From assembly GCF_000092425.1 (NCBI RefSeq), contig NC_014221.1, positions 1,865,001 to 1,929,000 on the forward strand: DNA of 64,000 nucleotides, read 5' to 3'. Shown here piece after piece: positions 21,642 through 26,661 of this stretch; the stretch's first letter is position 1, and each line of letters opens with the position of its first letter. Source of the DNA: Truepera radiovictrix DSM 17093 (GTDB taxonomy: Bacteria; Deinococcota; Deinococci; Deinococcales; Trueperaceae). Position numbers and translations under genes: made by a program. The notes below the pieces were generated by a model. It saw only the letters and a program-made list of their open reading frames with translations. It ran no database searches and had not been told where the DNA came from.

Positions 21642-22520
21642 GTGAACGGTTACCTACTCGTCTTCGCCGCAGCCGTCCTGTGGGGGCTCATCGGCGTGTT
21701 TTCACAGGGCATTCTAGACGCCGGGGTCGGGGCGCTCGAGATCGCCTTCTGGCGAGCGGCGCTCGCCGGGGCGCTCTTCGCCGCGCACGCCCGCCTGACC
21801 GGGCAGCTCAAGCTCGCCGGGGCGCGCGACTTCGGGGCGCTAGCGGCCTTCGCGGGGGTCGGCGTGACGCTCTTTTACGCCGCGTACACCCTGGCGGTGC
21901 AAACCGGCGGCGTGAGCCTGGCCTCGCTCCTCCTCTACAGCGCCCCTGCCTTCGTCGCCCTCGCGGCGTGGGCGCTCCTCGGCGAGGCGCTCACCCTTAG
22001 CAAACTCGGGCTCTTGGCGCTGACGCTCGTCGGCGTCGCGCTCGTGTCCCAAGGGGGCGGCGAGGGGGTGCGGGTGGGGCCAGCGTCGCTCTTCTGGGGG
22101 CTTGTCGCGGCGCTCGCCTACGCCTCGTACTACATCTTCGGCAAGTGGGTGCTCGCGCGCTACGCGCCCGTGACGATCTACGCCGTCGTCTTGCCCATCG
22201 GCGCGCTCGGGCTGCTGCCCTTGGTGACCTTCGCCCCCAAAACCCCGAGCGTTTGGGGGCTCTTGCTGCTCCTCGCGGCCGTCTCGACCTACGCCGCGTA
22301 CGGGCTCTACTACACCGGCCTCAAACGGGTCGAAGCCTCGAGGGCGGTCCTGGTCGCCAGCGTCGAACCCGTCGTCGCCGCGCTCTTGGCCGCCCTGCTC
22401 TTCGGGGAGCGCTTGGGCGCGTGGGGTCTCTTGGGGGGTGCGGCGATCCTCGGCGCGGCGGTGCTCGCGAGCTTGCCGGCTCGCGCCGCCCGCAGCCCCC
22501 AACCCGGGGACCTCGCTTGA
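21642..22520 (+). CDS. EamA/DMT-family transporter
   Basis: A 292-residue protein with ten hydrophobic segments arranged as two EamA repeats. The first repeat opens with YLLVFAAAVLWGLIGVFSQG and ends near LLGEALTLSKLGLLALTLVG. The second begins at FWGLVAALAYASYYIFGKWV and ends with LVASVEPVVAALLAALLFGERLGAWGLLGG-type sequence, the typical ExxxA/GE element. Such proteins export or exchange small metabolites in the inner membrane. Its location before the arginine genes does not establish a substrate. Confidence 0.92.
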   Translation: MNGYLLVFAAAVLWGLIGVFSQGILDAGVGALEIAFWRAALAGALFAAHARLTGQLKLAGARDFGALAAFAGVGVTLFYAAYTLAVQTGGVSLASLLLYSAPAFVALAAWALLGEALTLSKLGLLALTLVGVALVSQGGGEGVRVGPASLFWGLVAALAYASYYIFGKWVLARYAPVTIYAVVLPIGALGLLPLVTFAPKTPSVWGLLLLLAAVSTYAAYGLYYTGLKRVEASRAVLVASVEPVVAALLAALLFGERLGAWGLLGGAAILGAAVLASLPARAARSPQPGDLA

Positions 22521-22607
22521 CCCTGGGCGGAGCGCGTGTTAGAGTCTGCAAGGTTATTGCCCGCGCTGCATTTGTATAGAGGGGCGCGAGCACACCACGA
22601 CACCGCC

Positions 22608-22640
22608 ATGCCGAACCCTACCCGCCGCGTCCGACGTTAG
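22608..22640 (+). CDS. Arginine-rich leader peptide upstream of argG
   Basis: A ten-codon ORF reads MPNPTRRVRR, four of its last five codons being arginine (CGC CGC GTC CGA CGT). It lies about 115 bases before argG, just ahead of hairpins and a T6 run. An Arg-dense leader is what ribosome-mediated attenuation of an arginine gene would need. The ATG lacks an obvious ribosome site. Confidence 0.55.
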   Translation: MPNPTRRVRR

Positions 22641-22695
22641 CGACCGCTCCAGAGGAGCGGAGGCCGTCGCGCGCCCTTTCGGGTGAGGGTTTTTT
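22641..22695 (+). promoter_or_regulatory. Candidate argG transcription attenuator
   Basis: After the leader peptide lies hairpin CCGCTCC-AGA-GGAGCGG (22644-22660). GGGTGAGGG (22681-22689) then precedes T6 (22690-22695). That GGGTGAGGGTT can pair locally with CCCT (22674-22677), or over a longer range with AACCCTACCC inside the leader ORF (22614-22623, one bulge). These alternatives could switch with ribosome position. Confidence 0.5.
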
Positions 22696-22755
22696 GCTGT
22701 TGTCGTGCCCCGCTCCCCCGCCCGCAAACCACACCCGACCCACTTAAGGAGCCCC

Positions 22756-24048
22756 ATGTCAGCGCAACAGGCAGCTCACGGCGCACGAAATCGCGCCGCC
22801 ACCCCCATCAAAAAAGCCCAAAAGGTCGTGCTCGCCTACTCCGGCGGCCTGGACACCTCGGTCATCTTGGCGTGGCTTCGCGAGGTCTACGGCGCGGAGG
22901 TCGTCGCCTTCACCGCCGACATCGGCCAGGGCGAAGAGGTCGCCGAGGCGAAGGAGAAGGCCCTCCGAACGGGCGCCGTGCAAGCTTATGCGGTCGACCT
23001 GCAGCGCGAGTTCGTCCAAGACTTTGTCTTTCCGGTGCTGCGCTCGGGCGCCCTCTACGAGGGCTACTATCTGCTCGGCACCTCGTTCGCGCGCCCCCTC
23101 ATCGCCAAAAAGATGGTCGAGATCGCCGAGGCCGAGGGCGCGGACGCGGTCGCCCACGGCGCCACGGGTAAGGGCAACGACCAGGTCCGCTTCGAGCTCT
23201 CGGCGTACGCGCTCAAACCCGACATCACGGTGATCGCGCCGTGGCGCGAGTGGACCCTACGGGGCCGCGAGGACTGCGTGCGCTACGCCCGCGAGCGGGG
23301 CATCCCGGTGGGCGTCACGAAGGAAAAACCCTACTCGGTGGACGCCAACCTCTACCACATCTCCTACGAGGGGGGCATCTTGGAGGACCCCTGGGCCGCC
23401 CCGCCCAAGGACATGTGGCGCCTCACGACCGACCCGATCGCGGCGCCGGACACCCCCGAGACGGTCGAGGTGACCTTCGAGGCGGGCGACCCGGTGGCGA
23501 TCAACGGCGAGCGCTTGGACCCCGTGGCGCTCTTACGCCGAGCGAACGACTTGGGCGGCAAACACGGCGTCGGCCGCGTCGACATCGTGGAGAACCGCTT
23601 TGTCGGGATGAAGTCGCGCGGCTGCTACGAGACGCCGGGGGGCACGCTGCTCTTTCACGCGCACCGGGCGGTCGAGTCGCTGACCCTAGACCGCCAGGTG
23701 ATGCAGCTGCGCGACGAACTCATGCCCAAGTACGCGGGGATGGTCTACAACGGTTTTTGGTTCGCGCCGGAGCGCGTGGCGCTGCAGGGGTTCATCGACG
23801 AGATCCAGAAGCCGGTGACGGGCACCGCGCGCTTAGAGCTCTACAAGGGCAGCGTCACCATCACCGGCCGCAAGTCGCCCAACTCGTTCTACCGCCAAGA
23901 CGTGGTCACCTTTGAAGAGGACGCGGTGTACGACCAGGCCGACGCGGACGGGTTTATCAAACTCAACGCCCTGAGGCTGCGCATCGCCGCCCAACTCGCC
24001 GCGAAGACCACCGCCGCGCCCCTCAAGATCCCGCAGTACACCGAATGA
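22756..24048 (+). CDS. argG: Argininosuccinate synthase
   Basis: A 430-residue enzyme that condenses citrulline and aspartate with ATP in arginine synthesis. The ATP-binding motif [15 protein letters not shown] (about 24-38) and the conserved [15 protein letters not shown] (about 132-146) are intact. The start is ATG 22756, six bases after AAGGAG; it gives a hydrophilic N-terminal extension of about 20 residues ([13 protein letters not shown]) before the usual start point. The stop overlaps the next gene. An Arg-rich leader and terminator-like element precede it. Confidence 0.97.
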
Positions 24049-24503
24049 TGGCCACGCTCACCTCAGCGCCCACGGCGAAGCTGCGCGCCGCTACGCACGC
24101 TGATGTCGGCGCGTTGGCGGCGCTCTACCGGAGCGCTTGGGAGGACGAGACGGAGGACGAGGCGACGGTCGCGAGCTGGCTCGAGCGGGGCGGGGCGCTG
24201 CTCTTTGCCGCAGGTGACACCGTCGTCTGCGCGCTGCGCTGGCGCGAAGCGCCCTACGGCTGGGAGGTCGGGCGGCTCGCCACGCTCCCCGCGTACCGCG
24301 CCCAGGGTTTCGGGCGCTGGCTGATGACGCGGCTCGAAGCCCTCGCCATCCAACACAGCGTCCCCGAGCTGCGGCTCACGCTGAGCGACGCGCAGCGCGA
24401 GCTCCTGCCCTACTACACGCGCATGGGCTACCGCCCGTGCCGTCCGGAGGACCCCCTGACGCTCTGCAAACGCGTCGGGGGGGTGTGGCAGCGGCAGGGA
24501 TGA
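24045..24503 (+). CDS. GNAT-family acetyltransferase
   Basis: A 152-residue GNAT protein whose ATG overlaps the argG stop by four bases. The acetyl-CoA pyrophosphate loop is visible in [20 protein letters not shown] (about 84-103; R/Q-x-x-G-x-G/A type). The C-terminal part ends with [20 protein letters not shown]. It acetylates an amine by family. Its coupling to argG hints at a role near amino-acid metabolism, but no substrate is indicated. Confidence 0.88.
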
Positions 24504-25257: not shown

Positions 25258-26661
25258 GTGGCTTCTAAAACTGGGGAACAGAAACGCATGTGGGGCGGGC
25301 GCTTCTCTGAAAGCACCGATGAGCTGGTGCAGCGCTTTAACGCCTCCGTAGACTTCGACCGGCGCCTTGCGCTGCACGACCTTGCGGGCTCGGTCGCCCA
25401 CGCCACCATGCTGGGCGAGACGGGTATCCTGACCCAGGACGAGGCGGCGCAGATCATCGCGGGGCTCAAGAACCTGAAGCAGGAGGTCGAGGCGGGGACG
25501 TTCGAATGGCGCGTTGACCTCGAGGACGTCCATATGAACCTCGAGCACGCCCTGACGGAGCGCATCGGCCCCATCGGCGGCAAGCTCCACACCGCCCGGA
25601 GCCGCAACGACCAGGTCGCTACCGACTTCCGGCTCTGGCTGAGAGACGAGACGCACGCGCTCATCGGCCTTTTGCGCGAGGTGCAGGGCGCTCTCGTCGC
25701 GGCCGCCGAGCGCCACTTGGGGCTCATCATGCCGGGCTACACCCACCTGCAGGTCGCGCAACCGGTGCTCTTTAGCCACCACCTGCTCGCCTACTATGAG
25801 ATGTTCGCGCGCGACGAGGGGCGGCTCACAGACTCCCTCAAACGCCTCAACATCTCGCCGCTGGGCGCCGGGGCGCTCGCCGGTACGGGCTTCCCCATCG
25901 ACCGCGCGCGCACCGCCCAGCTGTTGGGGTTTGAGGGCGTCGCCCGCAACTCGCTCGACGCGGTGTCCGACCGCGACTTCGCCGTCGAGTTTCTGGCGGC
26001 CGCCAGCCTCATCATGATGCACCTCTCGAGGCTCTCGGAGGAGCTCATCTTGTGGTCGAGCCAGGAGTTCGGCTTCGTAACGCTCCCCGACTCGCACACA
26101 ACGGGGTCGTCGATCATGCCGCAGAAAAAGAACCCCGACGTCTCCGAGCTCACGCGCGGCAAGACGGGGCGCGTCTACGGGCACCTGCTGGGGCTCTTGA
26201 CGACCCTTAAAGGCTTGCCGCTGGCCTACAACAAGGACCTGCAGGAGGACAAAGAGGGGGTGTTCGACACCGCCGACACGCTGCGCGTGTGCCTTACGCT
26301 CACCGCCGACCTGCTGCCCAAACTCGTCCCCAACGCCTCACGCATGCGTGAGGCGGCGGGCCGCGCCTACTCGAACGCGACCGACCTGGCCGACTACCTG
26401 GCGCGCCAGGGTCTGCCCTTCCGCGAGGCGCACGAGGTCGTGGGCAAGCTCGTCGCGCGCGCCCTACGCGAGGGCAAAGACCTCCAGGAGCTCACGCTCG
26501 CCGAGATGCGAGCGGCGTGCGCGCTTATCGGCGAGGAGGTCTTCGAGGTGCTCCGACTGGAGAGCGTCGTCAATGCCCGCTCGAGCTACGGCGGCACCGC
26601 GCTTGACGCGGTGCGGGCGCAGCTCGCGGCCGCCAAGGCGCGGCTGGAGGGGCAGGGATGA
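25258..26661 (+). CDS. argH: Argininosuccinate lyase
   Basis: A 467-residue enzyme of the fumarase/aspartase superfamily that cleaves argininosuccinate to arginine and fumarate. Visible signatures are KMWGGRF-like [13 protein letters not shown] at the N-terminus, [20 protein letters not shown] (about 111-130), the catalytic-loop [20 protein letters not shown] (about 282-301). GTG 25258 follows AAGGGAG. It overlaps the next gene (ATGA). Confidence 0.97.

Follow-up and report, generated by a model that had tools for sequence, protein, structure and literature searches.

Bacterial control of arginine synthesis is usually attributed to the ArgR repressor, and attenuation by a translated leader is a classic form of control for other amino acids. 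Classical attenuators (trp, his, leu, ilv, thr and pheA) combine a short leader ORF rich in codons for the end product with a terminator hairpin and U-run ahead of a biosynthetic gene. The region upstream of argG in Truepera radiovictrix resembles them in all of these respects, but differs in that the amino acid is arginine, the leader ORF has no Shine-Dalgarno sequence, and the Trueperaceae leader ORF itself supplies the terminator's 5′ arm and a separate antiterminator is not evident. Leaders that sense arginine have been described elsewhere. The speF leader orf34 (speFL) of Salmonella and E. coli uses consecutive Arg codons to sense arginine and alter downstream RNA structure, but it targets ornithine decarboxylase, has 34 codons, relies on Rho and RNase G, and encodes an unrelated peptide (PMC6386406); its HIRRT core was not found in the leaders studied here, which are 8–23 aa long and precede argG, not speF. 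In Staphylococcus aureus, slow Arg codons in the rbfL leader ORF sense arginine limitation, but stalling there blocks the rbf ribosome site and so represses, with neither a biosynthetic gene nor a terminator involved (PMC13009471). The LEU element of Actinobacteria, in which leader codons pair with the Shine-Dalgarno sequence of a biosynthetic gene, is similar to those forms of our leader that lack a T-run (as in genus g16), but concerns leucine and leuA and contains a pseudoknot (PMC1262725). The uORFC-8-2 motif of Rhodobacterales is likewise a computationally found upstream ORF with tandem codons for the relevant amino acid, but this is cysteine and the gene, cysS, encodes a tRNA synthetase (PMC8632094). 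Searches against Rfam, T-box included, gave no match at the gathering threshold in the window (by which we mean the whole 64,000-nt stretch of DNA analyzed) and none at E ≤ 0.5 for L001, L104, L120 and L132. The literature searched, in which subscription papers were thinly covered, yielded no report of an arginine attenuator acting on a biosynthetic gene, which is not in itself proof of novelty. The argG leader is apparently a conserved, undescribed case of a classic bacterial type of control.

The T. radiovictrix type-strain chromosome is a single contig of 3,260,398 bases (PMC3072082). In the window, argG (argininosuccinate synthase; Pfam PF00764 and PF20979) occupies 22756..24048 on the + strand, as do all features given here, and is followed by a GNAT acetyltransferase gene (24045..24503, from a Pfam search) that overlaps the argG stop codon and, given this position, is likely cotranscribed with it. 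Next in order on the same strand come argH (argininosuccinate lyase, 25258..26661; PF00206 and PF14698), which may belong to the same regulated unit, and a second GNAT gene. Upstream, a scan for sigma-70-like patterns gave a single match in 5 kb, the promoter-like site TTGACC-N17-TAGAGT at 22517..22545, with a TG ahead of the −10; a TTGAC...TGCTAnnnT layout is also seen in relatives, as judged by eye. Between this site and the leader ORF lies a candidate ArgR operator, the degenerate CTGCATTTGTATAG at 22566..22579, proposed from comparison of upstream sequences; relatives carry clearer palindromes at the same place, TGCATA-NNN-TTGCA or TATGCA (e.g. L112 and L093; also L088). Palindromes of this type stand downstream of the promoter and before the leader ATG in most Trueperaceae, and are probable ArgR operators. 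Since ArgR is also encoded in 37 of 39 Trueperaceae genomes, that of T. radiovictrix among them, argG is probably under dual control by the leader and ArgR. The same two observations, ArgR and operator-like palindromes past the promoter, would also suit a simpler account, in which the hairpin merely terminates transcription of the upstream neighbor, an EamA transporter gene, the ORF is accidental, and argG answers to ArgR alone. However, the promoter-like site sits between the end of the EamA gene and the hairpin, and the leader ORF is kept in frame across families, so we regard this account as highly improbable.

The leader ORF itself, MPNPTRRVRR, spans 22608..22640, with its ATG at 22608-22610, 10 codons, and a TAG stop at 22638-22640. 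Four of its last five codons specify arginine, CGC CGC GTC CGA CGT (R R V R R, 22623..22637), and we assign these as the control codons from the alignment block they form and the conservation of CGA. A sequence-only reading of this DNA had drawn attention to this arginine-rich end, to a T6 run downstream, and to pairing of part of the ORF with the terminator arm, all of which stand: T6 lies at 22690..22695, and the helix base is formed by AACCCTACCCG (22614-22624, codons 3-6; the predicted 5′ arm as a whole is at about 22613..22624) with CGGGTGAGGGTT (22680-22691), with one bulge. Its estimate of about 60 bases from T6 to the argG ribosome site needs correction, as the gap to the Shine-Dalgarno sequence AAGGAG (22746..22751) is 50 nt. 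The predicted 3′ arm, CGGGTGAGGGTTT (22680..22692), runs directly into T6, and since the 5′ arm lies within the leader ORF, the ORF itself is half of the terminator. The segment 22605-22700 folds as a single long hairpin at −48 kcal/mol, compared with −35.9 ± 3.5 for shuffled sequences (z = −3.43), and none of 200 shuffles folded equally well. Local hairpins of 5–6 bp at T6 were also considered as the terminator and set aside, their number being no better than chance (5 sites per 5 kb, with 3.0 ± 1.9 expected). In these folding predictions, it is the long-range helix, with the leader ORF as part of it, that makes the strong terminator. A further hairpin just past the stop, CCGCTCC-AGA-GGAGCGG (22644..22660), whose form is kept in much of Trueperaceae, is a candidate pause hairpin.

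From this arrangement and from the comparisons below, we consider it highly likely that the leader acts on argG as a ribosome-mediated attenuator, with charged tRNA-Arg as the signal; transcription and translation of the leader, its response to arginine and the direction of that response are what we infer here. Transcription would start near 22552 and yield an mRNA encoding the short peptide that lacks a Shine-Dalgarno sequence. With ample Arg-tRNA, the ribosome would pass CGC CGC GTC CGA CGT and be released at UAG, and the freed codons AACCCUACCCG would pair with CGGGUGAGGGUU to form the strong terminator before U6, so that RNA polymerase would not enter argG. Under a shortage of Arg-tRNA, the ribosome would stall on the Arg codons, slowest at CGA, with its body over the 5′ arm, leaving only weaker downstream hairpins and allowing RNA polymerase to continue into argG. 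With the usual footprint assumed, the entire 5′ arm would lie under a ribosome positioned at the first Arg codons, while one at the stop would cover about 3 of its 11 bases. The sequence-only reading had also spoken of competing hairpins. With the ORF masked, the energy model leaves weaker alternative folds, at −16 to −27 kcal/mol against −46, but a separate antiterminator of the classical type is not evident in Truepera, where a stalled ribosome would instead sit over the 5′ arm itself. Even with a ribosome at the Arg codons, the model retains a hairpin (−16 kcal/mol) that reaches the U-run, and one masked-state fold pairs the U-run with GGAGGCC; this residual structure could thus act as an antiterminator, or could leave some termination in place.

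Conservation of the Arg codons upstream of argG, which the sequence-only reading had suggested checking, is found both within Trueperaceae and in four other families of Deinococcota. Of 39 Trueperaceae genomes, 36 gave an ArgG match, and 31 of these have readable upstream DNA. A mini-ORF that starts with ATG and closes with a cluster of Arg codons is present in 28 of these 31 (L001, L082-L088, L090, L092-L097, L099-L110 and L112) and absent from L089, L091 and L111. Examples include MPIPATRPQRRARRR, MSDKKPVTRRVRRR, MNLLTHRVRR, MHNRTATQTRARRR and MATPATPLLPRRARRP. Under a strict rule (an ATG mini-ORF of 8–22 codons with at least four Arg among the last seven), 22 of 29 Trueperaceae argG upstream regions qualify, as compared to 2 of 1862 background 300-nt windows (0.1%) and 13 of 2900 shuffled sequences. 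The Arg-ended mini-ORF before argG is therefore beyond chance. When the 28 Trueperaceae leaders are joined by 14 argG loci of the four other families, the reading frame is distinctive: all 42 leaders have an ATG in frame, within 20 codons of CGACG and with no intervening stop (the other two frames give 1 and 4), and 40 of 42 have a stop within four codons past CGACG (1 and 5), a result that is supportive but not fully independent because Arg-rich ends had helped to identify these leaders. Each of the three stop codons occurs. Frame, start and stop are kept across the leaders, and sequence and structure diverge.

Codon choice within these leaders is also conserved. Our alignment of the leaders (A1) contains an invariant CGC-NNN-CGACG block, and the final Arg pair begins with CGA in 27 of 28 Trueperaceae leaders and with AGA in one, its second codon being CGC or CGT. 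CGA makes up 3.7% of Arg codons in 33 genes of the window. In a his attenuator assay in Salmonella, de-attenuation was greatest for Arg pairs that included CGA (PMC4046918), and we infer that CGA serves here as the slow codon expected of a sensitive tRNA-Arg sensor. In genus g4, Arg is constant at residue 7 and its codon changes synonymously among AGA, CGC and CGA. Arginine accounts for 34% of residues in the 28 leaders versus 8.7% in the window genes. This enrichment, the CGA bias and the specific link to argG are left unexplained if leader translation as such, whether translation-coupled or Rho-sensitive, is what matters, with any translated ORF disrupting the terminator and no tuning to arginine. 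Such an explanation finds some footing in the placement of the ORF within the 5′ arm, so that any ribosome would disturb the terminator, and in the absence of a T-run from many relatives. However, direct inspection in T. radiovictrix revealed no Arg leader upstream of argF-argC, a second argC homologue or carA, and we judge the explanation very unlikely. A search of the same genome for more Arg leaders with a loose 15-mer pattern was uninformative: it gave 248 matches, and those inspected were not leader ORFs.

In Trueperaceae, Ala or Val almost always separates the Arg pairs, and the motif adjoins the stop codon. Both features would suit a short R-[AV]-R-R nascent peptide that itself arrests the ribosome near the stop, perhaps in response to arginine or another metabolite bound in the tunnel, in place of stalling through a lack of charged tRNA-Arg; the arginine/ornithine-responsive speFL/orf34 leader of E. 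coli and Salmonella is a precedent (PMC6386406). However, the distance from motif to stop varies among leaders (usually 0–3 codons, but far more in L130 and L131), the peptides have only 8–23 aa, and the identity of the CGA codon is conserved beyond what a peptide signal needs. We thus consider peptide arrest unlikely, and ribosome-mediated attenuation through tRNA-Arg remains the reading that the cross-genome comparison supports, with one refinement concerning its output.

Pairing between the ORF and a downstream arm recurs in most Trueperaceae members with differing sequences, for example GACCCGACCCC/GGGGTCGGGTC (L104), AACCCAGACCC/GTCTGGGTC-TTTTT (L097) and CCCACGAAC/GTTCGTGGG (L106). Fold z-scores of the Trueperaceae leaders average −2.3 and fall below −2 in 17 of 28. 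Because the MAFFT cross-genus alignment was too poor in the hairpin, pairing was assessed by permutation of duplexes across genera in place of a covariance model. Arms from the same genome pair better than arms combined across genera: with the whole ORF, 10 of 20000 permutations did as well, and with just the 26 nt ahead of the control codons, 103 of 50000 did; in six loci (L085, L090, L092, L094, L102 and L110) the helix was no better than cross-genus pairs by this test. Within genus g4, 88.5% of cells in the helix are paired, against 32–47% when it is slid, with none of 500 shuffles equaling it, and double-sided changes occur at two base pairs.

A T-run of at least four past the 3′ arm is present in about 7 of 28 leaders (L001, L082, L083, L088, L097, L110 and L112), so that Truepera and about six other genomes have a terminator hairpin with U-run between the leader ORF and argG. 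In several leaders without a T-run, the 3′ arm adjoins the argG ribosome site, and the same helix would probably mask that site. In our energy calculations, masking the leader eases opening of the site by 2–8 kcal/mol in L093, L096, L099, L101, L104, L105, L108 and L109, all T-less, and brings no gain in the T-run leaders L001, L082, L083 and L097; the exceptions to this pattern are L103 and L107, which are T-less, and L110, which has a T-run and yet gains. In many T-less relatives, control by the leader seems to fall on the argG ribosome site, which looks like a translational output, and we read the masking results as pointing to one sensor with two outputs, termination and ribosome-site masking.

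The 14 argG loci outside Trueperaceae have related leader ORFs with a CGA-CGN pair: MPTMLYRSDRR and MNPFTCRR in family f2; MTTLRTRRPN and MTINRRPS in f3; MKRRARRLH, MKLRARRLK and MWGEERRPQ in f4; and, in f5, MERRVRRPRA and MEGRVRRLCA (g28) and MLRRRPHHH... (g27). The f4 leaders (L120-L123 and L129) show mutually exclusive hairpins of the classical kind, CAAGCGCC/GGGGCTTG versus GGTGGGG/CCCCACC-TTTCTTCT, and differ in layout from those of Trueperaceae. No leader ORF was found in the sampled f5 genera g29, g30 and g31 or in the f4 genus g26, and the Arg-ORF rule gave 0 of 80 argG loci in a scan of genome contigs, which came almost entirely from other phyla (an exception, L005, belongs to a Meiothermus). 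Some of these genera have other features at argG. The Meiothermus-like g29 (L005, L134-L139, L149 and L150) has no Arg ORF and carries a different conserved block upstream of argG, TTTGGCGGTACTGTATGGCTTTGTGTGGGG and variants, while g30, probably Thermus (L140-L148), has a short conserved hairpin, CCCCCTCGAGGGGG-TAGACT, directly past the −10 of argG and no leader peptide. In g26 (L124-L128), which has no leader ORF, the argG ATG lies about 8 bases past a TATATT −10-like box, and argG itself appears to be leaderless.

How the leader is translated may also differ between families. Nearly all leaders lack a recognizable Shine-Dalgarno sequence, the best pairing being −5.7 kcal/mol in L105. About 60 bases separate the −10 from the leader ATG in Trueperaceae, with the ArgR-box-like palindromes inside. 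In f4 and f5, the −10 (TATACT or TATAGT) ends 7–10 bases ahead of the leader ATG, and this short gap suggests that the transcript is leaderless or nearly so; genes of the leaderless kind are common in Deinococcus (PMC9031893). Taken jointly, these features would fit a broader reading, which we offer as tentative and somewhat doubtful: an ancient, Deinococcota-wide arginine attenuator of argG with a slow CGA-CGN sensor, its output switching among genera, and its mRNA leaderless in Thermaceae-like families, where the leader AUG would be at or next to the transcription start.

The absence of a Shine-Dalgarno sequence, or the possible use of leaderless mRNA, would make this leader ORF a case for studying how reading occurs in time to control RNA polymerase. 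If the attenuator is phylum-wide, a fixed rare codon pair combined with divergent RNA structures would show that tRNA-Arg is sensed on top of ArgR, and the family would offer a natural series for following attenuator shifts between transcriptional and translational output.
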